Assembly (NCBI GenBank): GCA_017413255.1
Contig: JAFPUC010000005.1
Coordinates: 1-64,000 of the forward strand
Reading direction: 5' to 3'
Length of the DNA: 64,000 bases
Source: Aeriscardovia sp.
Lineage (GTDB): Bacteria > Actinomycetota > Actinomycetes > Actinomycetales > Bifidobacteriaceae
Positions 51,326 through 57,201 of the stretch are shown one piece after another. The position numbers and the translations under genes are program-made. Within the stretch, counting starts at the first letter, position 1. Every line of letters begins with the position of its first letter. The notes below the pieces were generated by a model, which saw nothing but the letters and a program-made list of their open reading frames with translations, was not told where the DNA came from and did not search any database.

Positions 51326-51361
51326 TTGCAAACACAAAAATGCCCCCTATAATGGGGGGCA
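51326..51361 (+). promoter_or_regulatory. promoter of oxc with a palindrome over the -10 box
   Basis: TTGCAA (51326..51331) and TATAAT (51348..51353) are separated by 16 bp, so a transcript would begin at about 51360. The -10 box is the centre of a perfect 7-bp inverted repeat, TGCCCCC before it and GGGGGCA after it (51341..51361). The palindrome could be a repressor site at the promoter or a 3'-end hairpin for hsp20. Confidence 0.65.
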
Positions 51362-51362
51362 A

Positions 51363-51431
51363 GATTAAGTTTTTAATCATTGCGGGCGCCTTTCCAACGC
51401 GAGTGCGTGAGGAAGGGCGCCCGCTTTTTTT
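51363..51431 (+). promoter_or_regulatory. oxc leader RNA with attenuator-like terminator (copy 1)
   Basis: The predicted leader starts with a small hairpin, GATTAA-GTTT-TTAATC, then ATT, then a 14-bp stem made of GCGGGCGCCTTTCC (51382..51395) and GGAAGGGCGCCCGC (51411..51424) with one G-U pair. Inside it ACGC and GCGT form a second stem with loop GAGT. Seven U follow. Only 29 nt separate the U-tract from the oxc start codon, and AAGGAG lies in that gap. The segment 51373..51432 is identical to the frc leader. Termination here would stop oxc expression, so the element is probably an attenuator. Confidence 0.75.
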
Positions 51432-51460
51432 AAATGGCTTTTTGTATTACAAGGAGCGAT

Positions 51461-53185
51461 ATGTCATCTGTAAAAATGAACGGCGCCGATCTTTTAGTGG
51501 AAGCGCTGAAGGCCAACGGCGTTAAAAACGTCTACGGCCTCGTCGGAATTCCAGTCACCGACGTATCCCGCTTGATGGAAATGGAAGGAATCCGCTTTTA
51601 CGCCTTCCGCAGGGAAGATGCGGCAGTGGAAGCTGCAGCTGCCGCAGGCTTTCTCACAGGGCGCCCCGGAATAGCCCTCACCGTTTCGGCCCCCGGATTT
51701 CTTAACGGCCTTGTAGCCCTCAAAGAAGCTACGGAAAACTGCTGGCCCGTCATAATGATCTCCGGATCTTCCGACAGGGCTCTTGTCGATATGGACAGGG
51801 GCGAGTACGAAGGAATGGACCAGTACAACGCGGCCAAGCCCTTCTGCAAGGCAGCTTTCAGAATTGACAAGCCCGAAGACGTAGGCCTTGGAGTAGCCAG
51901 GGCCTTCAGGGCCGCCATGGGCGGAAGGCCCGGGGGCGTTTACTTGGATGTTCCCGGAGAAATGCTGGGACAAATGCTGGATCCCTCCGTCGATCCCGCC
52001 TCCACAATCCACGTTCCCGTCGATCCCGCTCCCGCCCAGTTCCCGAGCGACGAAGCGGTAAAGAGGGCTGTAGACATCCTCACCTCCGCCAAGAGGCCCA
52101 CCATTCTTCTTGGAAAGGGAGCCGCTTACGCCAAGGCGGAAAACCAGATTAGAGATCTCGTAGATTCCACTTCCATTCCCTTCCTGCCCATGAGCATGGC
52201 CAAGGGAATCATCCCTGACGGAAGCGAGCACAGTGCGGCCGCCGCAAGGTCGCTGTCTTTGGGAAGCGCGGATGTGATAGTGCTTTTGGGAGCCAGGCTC
52301 AACTGGCTTCTCGGCAACGGCGCTTCTCCCAAGCCCTTCGCTGAGGACGTAAAGTTCATCCAAGTGGATATCGACGGCCAGGAGATAGATTCCAACCGCC
52401 ACATCGCTGCCCCCCTCGTAGGAGACATGGTCTCGGTTCTCAGCAAGTTCGTTCCCGCCGTAAAGGCAACCGGATACAAGGCGCCTCAAGACTGGCTCGA
52501 TCAGATCGCCGCCAAGAAGGCTTCCAACGTGGAAAAGATGAGCAAGGCGGAAGAAGCCGGCAAGGGCAAGGTTCCCATGGGCTTCTACGGTGCAATGCTT
52601 CCGATTCGCGACCTCATCGCAAAGAATCCGGACACCTATCTGGTTTCCGAAGGGGCTAACACCCTCGACATCGGAAGGGACGTCATCAACATCTTCCAGC
52701 CCCGCCACCGCCTTGACACCGGAACCTGGGGCGTCATGGGCGTAGGCCTGCCCTACGCCATCGCCACCGCAGTAGAAACCGGAAGGCCCGTGATAGACCT
52801 TGCAGGCGACTCTGCCTTCGGCTTTGACGGAATGGAAGCGGAGACCATGTGCAGGTATCACCTGCCCATAACTGTAGTAATCTGCAACAACGGCGGAATC
52901 TACAACGGAGAGAATCCCGAGATTAATGGAATGGTTTCCCCGACCTACCTCGATCCTGCCGGACAGTACGATCTTCTGGCCCGCGCATTTGGCGGAAGGG
53001 CCTACGCCGTGCGCACTTACCAGGAGATGGAAGACGCTTTGAACGAGGCCTACGACTCCAAGGAGCCGACCATCATCAACGCCGTGCTTTCCACCTCCAT
53101 GGGCAAGGAGAGCGGGCACATAGGCCACCTCAACCCCGTCATCTTCCATGAAGACGGGCCGGTAAACATGCCCAGTGAGAAATAG
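51461..53185 (+). CDS. oxc: oxalyl-CoA decarboxylase
   Basis: Converts oxalyl-CoA to formyl-CoA and CO2, using thiamine diphosphate and Mg2+, and consuming a proton. The thiamine motif is GDSAFGFDGMEAETMCRYHL with NNGG about 30 residues later. The N-terminal activating Glu lies in FYAFRREDAAVEAAAAAG. GTWGVMGVGLPYAIA is the family segment before the cofactor site. 574 residues matches characterised enzymes. The ATG at 51461 has AAGGAG four bases upstream, so the longer frame is not used. The codon choice is strongly biased to C-ending codons, unlike neighbours, which suggests high expression. It is monocistronic-looking, with its own promoter and attenuator leader. Confidence 0.96.
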   Translation: MSSVKMNGADLLVEALKANGVKNVYGLVGIPVTDVSRLMEMEGIRFYAFRREDAAVEAAAAAGFLTGRPGIALTVSAPGFLNGLVALKEATENCWPVIMISGSSDRALVDMDRGEYEGMDQYNAAKPFCKAAFRIDKPEDVGLGVARAFRAAMGGRPGGVYLDVPGEMLGQMLDPSVDPASTIHVPVDPAPAQFPSDEAVKRAVDILTSAKRPTILLGKGAAYAKAENQIRDLVDSTSIPFLPMSMAKGIIPDGSEHSAAAARSLSLGSADVIVLLGARLNWLLGNGASPKPFAEDVKFIQVDIDGQEIDSNRHIAAPLVGDMVSVLSKFVPAVKATGYKAPQDWLDQIAAKKASNVEKMSKAEEAGKGKVPMGFYGAMLPIRDLIAKNPDTYLVSEGANTLDIGRDVINIFQPRHRLDTGTWGVMGVGLPYAIATAVETGRPVIDLAGDSAFGFDGMEAETMCRYHLPITVVICNNGGIYNGENPEINGMVSPTYLDPAGQYDLLARAFGGRAYAVRTYQEMEDALNEAYDSKEPTIINAVLSTSMGKESGHIGHLNPVIFHEDGPVNMPSEK

Positions 53186-53187
53186 TC

Positions 53188-53216
53188 TTTACATTCGGCA
53201 TATTGGGACATACACT
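53188..53216 (+). promoter_or_regulatory. promoter of frc
   Basis: TTTACA (53188..53193) and TACACT (53211..53216) are separated by 17 bp. The start point would be about 53223, right at the beginning of the structured leader. So frc is transcribed separately from oxc despite being next to it. Confidence 0.6.
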
Positions 53217-53224
53217 AAAAAATC

Positions 53225-53293
53225 GATTAGAGAGTTAATCATTGCGGGCGCCTTTCCAACGCGAGTGCGTGAGGAAGGGCGCCCGCTTTTTTT
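53225..53293 (+). promoter_or_regulatory. frc leader RNA with attenuator-like terminator (copy 2)
   Basis: The same architecture as upstream of oxc. GATTA and TAATC pair (loop GAGAGT), then comes ATT, then the identical 14-bp stem (53244..53257 with 53273..53286), inner ACGC/GCGT stem and seven U. Positions 53235..53294 match 51373..51432 base for base. The 5' arm of the small hairpin also pairs in both copies although its loop differs, which argues that the hairpin is functional. The U-tract ends 41 nt before the ATG. Confidence 0.75.
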
Positions 53294-53334
53294 AGATTGG
53301 CTTTCGCAGACAATAAAAAGAAAGGTATTTATTT

Positions 53335-54657
53335 ATGGATGAATTTGCACCGCTGAAAGGCATCACGGTAGTTGACTGGACCCAGGTCCAGTCCGGCCCC
53401 TCCTGCACTCAAATTCTGGCATGGCTCGGAGCTGACGTAATCAAGATCGAAAAGCCGGGATCCGGCGACCCCACCCGCAACCAGCTTCTGGATATCGCAG
53501 ATTCCTGGGGCCTTTACTTCCTGCAGCTTAACGCCAACAAGAAGTCGCTGACCCTCGACGTGCGCACTGAGAATGGAAAGAAAGTCCTTACCGAGCTCCT
53601 CAAGAAGGCTGACATTTTCATCGAGAACATCAAGCCCGGCGGCGTCGACAAGCTCGGCTTCGGATGGGAAGACGTGCACAAGCTCAACCCGCGCCTCATC
53701 ATGGGCAGCATCAAGGGCTTCAACAAGGGCTCCCGCTTTGAGAATGTGAAGGCTTATGAGCCTGTGGCCCAGTCCGCAGGCGGAGCCGCTTCCGCCACCG
53801 GCTGGAACGAAGGAAAGTTCAATGTTCCTACCCAGTCCGCCGCAGCCCTGGGCGACTCCAACTCCGGAATGCACCTGACCATGGGCATCCTCGCAGCCCT
53901 CGTGCAGCGCGACCGCACCGGCGAAGGATGCTTCGTTTACCAGTCCATGGTCAACGCCACCATCAACCTTTGCCGCATTAAGCTCCGCGACCAGATCATG
54001 CTCGACAACCTCGGAGCCCTCCCCCACTACGCCGTATACAACACCGGCTTCAAGTGGGGCAAGGCCATCCCCAGGGCCGAAAACACCGAAGGCGGACAGG
54101 TCATCGGCTGGTGCTACAGGGCCAAGGGCTGGGACACCGATCCTAACGATTACGTCTACATCGTCATCCAGGATCCCAAGTCCAGCTGGGAGGCTATGTG
54201 CAACACCATAGGCAAGCCTCAGCTCATAAACGATCCCCGTTTCGACACCTGGCAGCACCGCCAGCTCCACAAAGACGAGCTTTACGCCGAAATCGAAGAC
54301 TTCACCAAGAACTACGACAAGTTCACCCTTACCGAGATGTTCAGCAAGGCAGGCCTTCCCTGCGGGCCCATCATGGATTGGTACGAGCTCGAAAACGATC
54401 CTGATCTCAACTCCGACGGCACCATCGTCACCATCGACGAGGGCGGAAACCGCGGAAACTTCAAGACCATCGGCCTTCCTTGGACTATGTCTAACTACAA
54501 GCCCACCTACAAGCGCGCTCCCGATCTTGGAGAGAACAACAAGGAGATCCTCACGGGTCTCGGCTTCTCTGAGAGCGACATCCAGGGCATGCTCGCCGAC
54601 GGAACGATTTCTGAGGCCCGCGGGCCGAAGAACGCCGCGCCGGAAGTGATCAAGTAG
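53335..54657 (+). CDS. frc: formyl-CoA:oxalate CoA-transferase
   Basis: Moves CoA from formyl-CoA to oxalate, making oxalyl-CoA for Oxc and releasing formate. This is a class III (CaiB/BaiF) CoA-transferase. N-terminal LKGITVVDWTQVQSGPSCTQ, then GADVIKIEKPGSGD, and the catalytic Asp in GDSNSGMHLTMG (about residue 178; Asp169 in the Oxalobacter enzyme). The C-terminal GLPCGPIMDW loop is also typical. 440 residues. Codon bias is as strong as in oxc. AAAGAAAGG lies upstream of the ATG. It has its own promoter and attenuator. Confidence 0.95.
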   Translation: MDEFAPLKGITVVDWTQVQSGPSCTQILAWLGADVIKIEKPGSGDPTRNQLLDIADSWGLYFLQLNANKKSLTLDVRTENGKKVLTELLKKADIFIENIKPGGVDKLGFGWEDVHKLNPRLIMGSIKGFNKGSRFENVKAYEPVAQSAGGAASATGWNEGKFNVPTQSAAALGDSNSGMHLTMGILAALVQRDRTGEGCFVYQSMVNATINLCRIKLRDQIMLDNLGALPHYAVYNTGFKWGKAIPRAENTEGGQVIGWCYRAKGWDTDPNDYVYIVIQDPKSSWEAMCNTIGKPQLINDPRFDTWQHRQLHKDELYAEIEDFTKNYDKFTLTEMFSKAGLPCGPIMDWYELENDPDLNSDGTIVTIDEGGNRGNFKTIGLPWTMSNYKPTYKRAPDLGENNKEILTGLGFSESDIQGMLADGTISEARGPKNAAPEVIK

Positions 54658-54729: not shown

Positions 54730-55770
54730 ATGAATATTGGGAAGATTATTGTAGATGACCTGGTCCCAATTCTGGTCATCATGGCCCTAGGTTGGTGCCT
54801 GGGTTGGAAATGGAAGGGACAGAAGAAGCCCTTCATAGACAACGACGGACGAAAAGCTCTGAACTACTTCGTGTTGGATGTAGCTCTTCCTGCCGCCCTT
54901 TTTGCCTCCATCGCCAAAGCTTCAAGAAGGCTCTTTATTCAAGACGGCGTCTTGACTCTTATCTCCTTTATCGGCGTTACGGCGCTATTTATGGTTTGCT
55001 ACTACTTGGACAAGTGGCTGTTCAAGCGCAACAAGGCCGAAGCCGCCATCTGCGCACTGATAGCAGGATCGCCCACCATCGGCTTCCTGGGATTTGCAGT
55101 GCTTGACCCAATCTTCGGAGATACCACCAATACCAACCTAGTCATAGGCATTATATCCATAGTTGTAAACGCTATCACCATACCTATCGGCGTATCGCTG
55201 GTGGAATCTTACTATAATGAGCAAGCGGCTAAGGCCGGTACGCTCAAGACGGTAAATGAAAAGGGCAAGAAGATTCACCGCGGCGCAGGATGGTCCATCC
55301 TTCGCGCCTGCCGCAAGCCCGTTGCCGCTGCGCCTATCCTCGCAGTGATTTGGGTTTTGGTCGGAATTCCGTGGCCCTCCTGGCTCACCCCGAACTTCGA
55401 GCTCATAGCTAAGGCAAACTCCGGCGTTGCAGTTCTTGCAGCCGGCGTCGCCCTGGCCGCCACCGGAACCTTCGCTTTCAGCTGGGAAATTATCTGGAAC
55501 GTCTTCTACCGTTTGCTCCTCATGCCCGGAATTTTGGTATTCGTAGGATTCCTTTGCCAAATGTGGAGGAACAGCAACAGCCTCATCCTTCTTGAGATGC
55601 TTGCTCTTGGCACCGGCCTTCCCCCTGCAATGAGCGGCGTCATAATTTCCAGTCAAAATAATATTTACGTCAAGGAAGGCACAAGTACGCTGGCTATATC
55701 CACAGTCTGTTTCGCAGGTACATGCGTGCTGTGGATTTGGCTGATACCACTCATCTCTCACGCCCTATAG
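54730..55770 (+). CDS. AEC-family transporter, probably for oxalate or formate
   Basis: An integral membrane carrier of 346 residues with about ten hydrophobic segments, of the auxin efflux carrier (AEC) family. It has GRKALNYFVLDVALPAALF early and ends in an AEC-type helix pair (GLPPAMSGVIISSQNN, then STVCFAGTCVLWIWLIPL). It is in the position of yfdV in E. coli, between frc and the second CoA-transferase. Oxalate/formate exchange is the likely job, but the substrate is inferred from context. The ATG has no strong Shine-Dalgarno. It may be read from the frc promoter through the hairpin at 54679. Confidence 0.85.
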   Translation: MNIGKIIVDDLVPILVIMALGWCLGWKWKGQKKPFIDNDGRKALNYFVLDVALPAALFASIAKASRRLFIQDGVLTLISFIGVTALFMVCYYLDKWLFKRNKAEAAICALIAGSPTIGFLGFAVLDPIFGDTTNTNLVIGIISIVVNAITIPIGVSLVESYYNEQAAKAGTLKTVNEKGKKIHRGAGWSILRACRKPVAAAPILAVIWVLVGIPWPSWLTPNFELIAKANSGVAVLAAGVALAATGTFAFSWEIIWNVFYRLLLMPGILVFVGFLCQMWRNSNSLILLEMLALGTGLPPAMSGVIISSQNNIYVKEGTSTLAISTVCFAGTCVLWIWLIPLISHAL

Positions 55771-55859: not shown

Positions 55860-55965
55860 GCCCCCTCTGGGGCAGGGAGAGAAATACCCTTCTCCCGAAA
55901 AGGGTAGAAAGGGTATAAGGTTTTGCGGGAGTTTTCCGGTTAAAGCCGGGGCTCCCGTTTTTTTT
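55860..55965 (+). promoter_or_regulatory. structured leader with terminator before the second CoA-transferase
   Basis: Three hairpins in a row. First GCCCC-CTCT-GGGGC (55860..55873). Then TACCCTT (55885..55891) can pair either with AAGGGTA at 55900..55906 or with the second AAGGGTA at 55909..55915, two exclusive foldings. Then a terminator: CGGGAG (55926..55931) with CTCCCG (55952..55957), an inner CCGG pair, and eight U. The U-tract ends 24 nt before the ATG, too close to fit another promoter. So the gene needs read-through or anti-termination. Confidence 0.6.
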
Positions 55966-55989: not shown

Positions 55990-57201
55990 ATGACCGAGAA
56001 CGATAATCCGGACTATAAAAAGGCTGCGGAAGAAAATCCGCATCTAGATCCTTCAAAACCCTACCCCCTGCAGGGAGTATTGGTTGTAGATCTTACGCGC
56101 GTGCTCTCAGGTCCTACCTGCACCAGGATGCTGGCGGATGCAGGGGCGAGGGTGATACACGTAGAAAGGCCGCCCAAGGGCGATGATACCCGCAGCATGG
56201 GGCCCTACGTATCTGACGGATCTTCCGATTACTTCCGCATTGCGAACGTGGGAAAGGAATCTATAGCCCTGGATTTCAAAAACCCCGAGGATCACGATTT
56301 TCTCATGAAGATGATTTCTAAGGCCGATGTGGTAGTGGAAAACTTCAGGCCCGGAGTAATGGCTAAAAACGGCTTGGATCCCGAGGATTTGGTAAAAAAG
56401 TTCCCGCGCCTCATAGTCTGCTCCATTTCAGGCTTTGGCCAGTGGGGGCCAATGTCGCAGGCTGCGGCTTACGACACCGTCATCCAGGCGTGGAGCGGCC
56501 TTATGGATTTAACAGGCCGGCCTGAAGACGAAGGAGGGCTTCCCACCAGGATGGGAACCTCCATTTCCGACATTGTGGCAGGCATTCACGGCTACGCCGG
56601 TATAGTTACCGCTCTTTACGCAAGGGAAAAGACCGGAAAGGGAACCACTGTAGACATTTCCATGCTAGACACCTCCTTCTCCCTCATGGCTCAAGGCCTT
56701 ATGAGTTCCCTTGGACTCGGACAGAGGCCCAAGAGGATCGGAAACCGCCATCCCTACATGTATCCTTTCGACACTTTCATGTGTGCAGACGAAATGGTGG
56801 CTATTTGCTGCGGAAACGACAGGCTCTGGGCTCTTTTAAGCTCGTGCCTGGGTCACCCCGAGTGGGCAAAGGACCCGGAGATGCTCACAAATGATTTGCG
56901 CGAGAAGAACTGGAGGAAGGTAAAGTCCCTTATGGAAGGGGTGCTCTCTACCGCCCCCGCCTCCGAATGGCAAAAGAAGATTTCCGAAGCGGGCGTGCCA
57001 TGCGGACTTTGCTTGAACGTGGATGACACGCGCCGCATGCCCCAAATAGTTTCAAGGGGAATGGTAAAAGAGATGCCTGACGGACAGCTCGTTTTGGGAG
57101 ATCCCTTCAAATATGGAACGTGGAATTCCTACGGCGTCAAAAAGGATGCCCCATCTTACAACGAAAACGGGGATGAAATCCGCAAAGAATTTGAAAATTA
57201 A
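55990..57201 (+). CDS. CaiB/BaiF CoA-transferase, possibly acetyl-CoA:oxalate type
   Basis: A second class III CoA-transferase of 403 residues. It has LQGVLVVDLTRVLSGPTCTR at the start, GARVIHVERPPKGDD, VVENFRPGVM, and the catalytic Asp in TVDISMLDTSF (about residue 220). It is only distantly related to frc (different loop lengths). By analogy with YfdE of E. coli, which makes oxalyl-CoA from acetyl-CoA and oxalate to prime the cycle, I suggest the same role; this is inference from position. The ATG has only a weak Shine-Dalgarno. The gene ends in a terminator shared with tRNA-fMet. Confidence 0.85.
   Translation: MTENDNPDYKKAAEENPHLDPSKPYPLQGVLVVDLTRVLSGPTCTRMLADAGARVIHVERPPKGDDTRSMGPYVSDGSSDYFRIANVGKESIALDFKNPEDHDFLMKMISKADVVVENFRPGVMAKNGLDPEDLVKKFPRLIVCSISGFGQWGPMSQAAAYDTVIQAWSGLMDLTGRPEDEGGLPTRMGTSISDIVAGIHGYAGIVTALYAREKTGKGTTVDISMLDTSFSLMAQGLMSSLGLGQRPKRIGNRHPYMYPFDTFMCADEMVAICCGNDRLWALLSSCLGHPEWAKDPEMLTNDLREKNWRKVKSLMEGVLSTAPASEWQKKISEAGVPCGLCLNVDDTRRMPQIVSRGMVKEMPDGQLVLGDPFKYGTWNSYGVKKDAPSYNENGDEIRKEFEN

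Follow-up and report, generated by a model that had tools for sequence, protein, structure and literature searches.

The locus described here raises the question of why oxc and frc, two genes of one oxalate pathway, are each preceded by the same strong terminator-like hairpin, placed after a predicted promoter and ahead of the start codon. The window, by which we mean the whole stretch of 64,000 nt that was analysed, comes from a 0.93-Mb genome of Aeriscardovia (Bifidobacteriaceae) with a completeness rating of 100%; the named records closest to it are metagenome-assembled Aeriscardovia genomes from the abomasum or reticulum of yak and buffalo. Upstream of oxc lies hsp20, and the oxalate genes follow in the order given in Table 1; an ATG at 51434 is likewise open as an alternative start of oxc. 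Our results suggest, with a probability that we put at about 0.58, that oxc and frc share a promoter-proximal terminator (an attenuator) which is specific to this genus and at which read-through is conditional. The element looks like a brake on oxc and frc, and conditional read-through is its likely, predicted purpose. How these genes are switched on in oxalate-degrading gut bacteria is relevant to diet, to ruminants feeding on oxalate-rich plants and to kidney-stone research.

Table 1. Positions of the genes and leader elements in the window and of related features in the sister genus
Feature	Position	Strand	Basis or remark
Predicted oxc promoter	51326..51353	+	-35 TTGCAA, 16 nt, -10 TATAAT; 10/12 consensus matches
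oxc leader hairpin 1	51363..51378	+	GATTAA-GTTT-TTAATC; fold; arms kept in genus
60-bp unit, copy 1 (oxc leader)	51373..51432	+	Identical to 53235-53294
oxc leader terminator hairpin	51382..51424	+	Fold; 14-bp stem, -36 kcal/mol
U tract, oxc leader terminator	51425..51431	+	Sequence; U-rich tract in 14/14 copies
oxc, oxalyl-CoA decarboxylase	51461..53185	+	TIGR03254, 832 bits vs cut-off 739
Predicted frc promoter	53188..53216	+	TTTACA, 17 nt, TACACT; 9/12 consensus matches
frc leader hairpin 1	53225..53240	+	GATTAG-AGAG-TTAATC; fold
60-bp unit, copy 2 (frc leader)	53235..53294	+	Identical to 51373-51432
frc leader terminator hairpin	53244..53286	+	Fold; 14-bp stem, -36 kcal/mol
U tract, frc leader terminator	53287..53293	+	Sequence; U-rich tract in 14/14 copies
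frc, formyl-CoA transferase	53335..54657	+	TIGR03253, 654 bits vs cut-off 504
YfdV-like transporter, oxalate cluster	54730..55770	+	Top NCBIfam match YfdV, under curated cut-off
Third, ordinary terminator hairpin (internal control)	55925..55958	+	32 nt upstream of second CoA-transferase
Second CoA-transferase, YfdE/CoA:oxalate CoA-transferase-like	55990..57201	+	Top match PRK11430, under curated cut-off
Broken second CoA-transferase, sister genus	L083:6840-7560 and L084:6157-7355		
Sister-genus block after the -10	L040:1400-1440, L038:1400-1440, L036	minus	Upstream of oxc

The initial annotation had claimed that a 60-bp unit is repeated identically before both genes and that each copy forms a terminator that has a 14-bp stem, an inner tetraloop stem and seven U. 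Sequence comparison and a genome search showed the identity to be exact, and both leaders fold as described, into a 6-bp hairpin 1 and, beyond it, a 14-bp stem that encloses an ACGC-GAGT-GCGT hairpin and has seven U after it; the stem needs correction only in that an additional 1x2 or 2x2 internal loop lies under the apical hairpin. Apart from CATT, the GAGT loop and the small internal loop, no part of the leader is unpaired. A leader folds with an energy of -40 kcal/mol (z about -7), which none of 200 shuffled sequences reached. A GC-rich stem directly before a U tract, by which an intrinsic terminator is defined, occurs in all 14 copies from the genus (14-bp stem, -29 to -37 kcal/mol). The further claim, of a 5' hairpin with differing loops and conserved pairing, holds for the loop, which is unconserved at 3-5 nt, and less strictly for the pairing, which is imperfect in one of the 14 copies (that of frc in G006). 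Since this loop varies in length, an RNA hairpin fits better than a DNA operator; an operator at the small palindrome, whose half-sites would lie 3 to 5 nt apart, is less likely. The 60-bp direct repeats (51373-53294) exactly flank oxc, and the gene could therefore be deleted or amplified by recombination.

Predicted sigma-70-like promoters lie upstream of both copies, in agreement with the claimed location between promoter and start codon, and the predicted oxc transcript begins 1-3 nt before hairpin 1; the initial annotation had put the predicted starts almost at that hairpin. The oxc promoter was among the two best in a 19-kb scan, and its TTGCAA and TATAAT are present in all seven Aeriscardovia species. 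A -10-like hexamer is found 6-9 nt upstream of hairpin 1 for both genes in every species: at oxc the hairpin begins 8-9 nt past the -10, and at frc the hexamer stands 6-8 nt ahead of it. The frc -35 is not conserved in the genus, and for the frc copy in the window the automatic -10 scan chose a closer AAAAAT, the TACACT of Table 1 coming from a separate promoter scan. No conserved -10 was detected downstream of the terminator in the seven species. The order of predicted promoter, hairpin 1, terminator and start codon is the same at both genes in 7/7 species. The sister genus has the hsp20 terminator first, then the promoter and then oxc, which makes the promoter-terminator-gene order a feature of Aeriscardovia. 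An inverted repeat, TGCCCCC-TATAAT-GGGGGGCA, is centred on the oxc -10 (window 51341-51361); it shows a matched change in G003 (GCCTCC/GGGAGGC), its symmetry is gone in the other clade, and it could be an operator or due to chance.

The element is confined to one genus. A DNA search of 59 genomes, comprising our own and its relatives, detected it in all seven Aeriscardovia members, our own genome included, and in no other genome; in each of the seven, oxc and frc are preceded by one copy each. A covariance-model search gave strong matches in Aeriscardovia only, at oxc and frc, among the 189 family genomes searched; no copy of comparable strength was found in the 182 others, and in a 297-genome sample of the order nothing outside Aeriscardovia was found at E 0.01. 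In our own genome the model returned the two copies and, up to E = 10, no weak relatives save the opposite strand of both hairpins. As there are only two copies, one at oxc and one at frc, the unit is not a general terminator, the case that the initial annotation had named as fatal to a leader, and a scattered repeat is likewise ruled out. Weak model matches in G016 and G092 and a third match in G005 were ordinary terminators with other loops; that in G016, a sister-genus genome, lies downstream of oxc. The element is absent upstream of oxc in other Bifidobacteriaceae, and the 16 oxc loci of other genera (L042-L057) yielded a single weak upstream terminator-like hairpin (-10.8 kcal/mol, L046).

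A search of Rfam gave no sense-strand match and only Trp_leader on the minus strand, at 31 bits against a gathering cut-off of 41, and in the literature on oxalate-gene regulation we found no paper on an oxalate-gene leader RNA. The earlier suggestion that the element was possibly not described before is thus borne out by the lack of an Rfam family and of literature on it. Premature termination in 5' UTRs is itself already known and, according to a 3'-end mapping study, common in bacteria (PMC7815308); it is the oxc/frc element that is new and genus-restricted. The likeness to the cases in that study is a 3' end of intrinsic type that falls between the promoter and the start codon, which is predicted at oxc and frc, and the difference is that a near-identical unit is here common to two genes of a pathway and evolves in concert.

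The conservation of the element indicates selection on its sequence. Approximately 45 nt are nearly invariant between deep clades, as against a 48-57% difference at four-fold sites of oxc (a comparison that leaves out G003). The core TTAATCATTGCGGGCGCYTTYYCCAACGCGAGTGCGTGAG is invariant in the genus except for its pyrimidine run, and so are the loop and the spacer. Four versions of the terminator 5' arm occur across the seven species, and within any one species the two copies always agree in it (permutation p = 0.0024, a guide only, as kinship is ignored); the 3' arms of the two copies are alike in just two of the seven. Pair covariation did not exceed that of shuffles and is uninformative because the sequence varies too little. 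The likeness of the copies could stem from gene conversion, the repeats being 1.86 kb apart, or from joint recognition; conversion by itself would be enough to make the copies identical, but does not account for a loop that is constant across species. A near-identical attenuator pair that evolves in concert offers a small, clean test system for how premature termination may jointly control two genes, and points toward a sequence-specific factor.

We assessed how unusual such elements are in 64 + 140 kb of this genome and in 140 kb of a second species (G005). Strong intrinsic terminators were few in these 204 kb and 140 kb; several of the clearest lay at most 25 nt past a stop codon, and no more than a handful of strong ones lay within about 70 nt upstream of a start codon. 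The oxc and frc elements are the most stable terminator-like hairpins in the approximately 204 kb of our own genome. The third terminator of the cluster has kept its position and stem style in the genus while its loop has drifted, and a plain terminator in this cluster therefore needs no fixed loop; as the oxc and frc loops are constant, this speaks for the apical sequence being recognised. This third terminator is strong and sits where an attenuator would, its place being kept in the genus and a preceding promoter not. No other intrinsic terminator was found after hsp20 or after oxc, so the element may double as the terminator of both genes.

According to the attenuator reading, oxc and frc would be transcribed separately, from starts no more than about 4 nt away from the respective 5' hairpin, and transcription would meet the same strong intrinsic terminator at about +60-70, some 30-50 nt upstream of the start codon. 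Most transcripts would end at a length of about 70 nt, and read-through would supply the enzymes. Read-through could be raised by a condition or factor to which both leaders respond, so that the oxc and frc products are made in step; such a factor would most likely contact the constant apical part, CAACGCGAGUGCGUGAG. We infer that transcription actually terminates here, that read-through is regulated and what kind of factor may be responsible. This reading is favoured by the presence of the element in 7/7 species, its restriction to two copies, the near-fixed distance from the -10, the U tract, the sequence constraint, the drifted loop of the third terminator, the variable loop length of hairpin 1, the high stability of the element, the matching 5' arms and the reversed order relative to the sister genus. 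Counted against it are the absence of an antiterminator of comparable stability, the search for a trans factor that gave none, the uninformative covariation, the unconserved frc -35, gene conversion as a possible source of the identity of the copies, and the possible role of the element as the terminator of hsp20 and oxc. Of the shared attenuation switch proposed in the initial annotation, the pair of 5' leader elements in promoter-terminator-gene order, found only at oxc and frc and conserved in the genus, is supported; classical control by a ligand is unlikely in leaders that have no antiterminator of adequate stability.

It is also possible, although unlikely, that these are ordinary terminators of hsp20 and oxc which arose by a single duplication and have been homogenised by gene conversion, with the downstream genes expressed through constitutive read-through or weak promoters after the hairpin. 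The absence of another intrinsic terminator after either gene, the plain terminators that the sister genus has after both and the concerted change of the two copies would all agree with this. However, a predicted promoter precedes the terminator in all species with no conserved -10 behind it, and the invariance of loop and spacer in the genus is unlike the third cluster terminator. Hairpins at the 5' end of an mRNA protect it, and hairpin 1 is nearly at the predicted 5' end and the second stem is very stable; yet neither the U tract of 14/14 copies nor the invariant apical sequence is needed by a stabiliser, and we consider it quite improbable that the paired hairpins chiefly shield the message from 5'-dependent RNases while terminating inefficiently. 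A two-copy small RNA gene, whose RNA of ~70 nt would act in trans with read-through into oxc and frc as a secondary matter, seems improbable, as it would have almost no single-stranded seed, its copies always lie directly upstream of oxc and frc, and no other site in the genome contains the apical sequence or its complement at up to 3 mismatches. Such a gene would nevertheless account for the predicted promoter and terminator of its own, the sequence-specific conservation and the likeness of the copies, and Rli51 offers a precedent for an attenuated leader that is also a trans-acting sRNA (PMC11394854).

For a riboswitch that binds oxalate, oxalyl-CoA or formate the chances appear very slim. 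One element with a near-invariant core stands at both genes of one pathway, and in all 14 copies TTGCG pairs weakly with CGCGA in the nascent RNA (probability 0.5-0.9 until the 3' arm has been transcribed), a pairing which, we speculate, a bound factor could exploit. However, the leader has about 70 nt, nearly all in two simple hairpins, without the sense-strand Rfam match of a known class, and no antiterminator matches a stem of -29 to -37 kcal/mol. Opening the 5' arm would cost 9-25 kcal/mol, so that the completed stem outcompetes any RNA alternative, and the lack of a mutually exclusive antiterminator of adequate stability makes a classical ligand riboswitch unlikely. A leader peptide is excluded because single-nucleotide length differences between species fall inside the stem and leave no conserved frame; trp leader attenuators share the terminator in a short leader, as well as the sub-threshold match on the opposite strand, but differ in these respects. 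BglG/SacY (RAT) systems also have a leader hairpin and an intrinsic terminator ahead of catabolic genes, but the CAT RNA-binding domain (PF03123) had no match in this genome, with control matches in four genomes, and hairpin 1 and the terminator do not overlap. Processive antitermination of the LoaP type is marked by a NusG paralogue besides NusG; this genome has one NusG domain only and no paralogue.

The closest functional parallel is the control of several eut terminators by EutV in Enterococcus (PMC3369931), where terminators likewise precede separate genes of a catabolic cluster, share a sequence near the terminator 5' side and form the second of two hairpins. ANTAR target RNAs, however, are two hairpins with hexanucleotide loops that need A at position 1 and G at position 4 (PMC3369931, PMC8164766), and none of the 14 leaders contains a hairpin of at least 3 pairs with such a loop. 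The one ANTAR protein of the genome is of the response-regulator type and has no link to the oxalate cluster. The search of the BglG, LoaP and ANTAR routes thus yielded no trans factor; a trans-acting factor is possible, as suggested by the sequence-specific conservation of the apical part alone. Because the riboswitch, leader-peptide, BglG, LoaP and ANTAR routes are unsupported, we prefer the shared promoter-proximal terminator. Only tentatively would we go further and propose a form of antitermination not yet described, in which an RNA-binding factor, or a metabolite acting through it, would recognise the apical hairpin and release oxc and frc in the presence of oxalate, joint recognition then keeping the copies alike.

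Other genera show different features at these loci. In the sister genus the second CoA-transferase gene is broken up between oxc and frc in two genomes, and in Aeriscardovia it is intact and follows the transporter. Just past the oxc -10 the sister genus carries a conserved block of its own, GTCC[AG]CTGGGCGGAATGGCGTAG[AG]GGA[CT], which contains an imperfect 7-bp inverted repeat and has no Rfam match. This block is kept in three species, one of them AT-rich and otherwise diverged, and each genome has a single mismatch-free occurrence of its 18-bp core. Many oxc upstream regions of the Bifidobacterium group (L045, L048, L050, L052-L056) carry a motif like AAATACGCT(G/A)AGCGC, which is possibly a regulator site.
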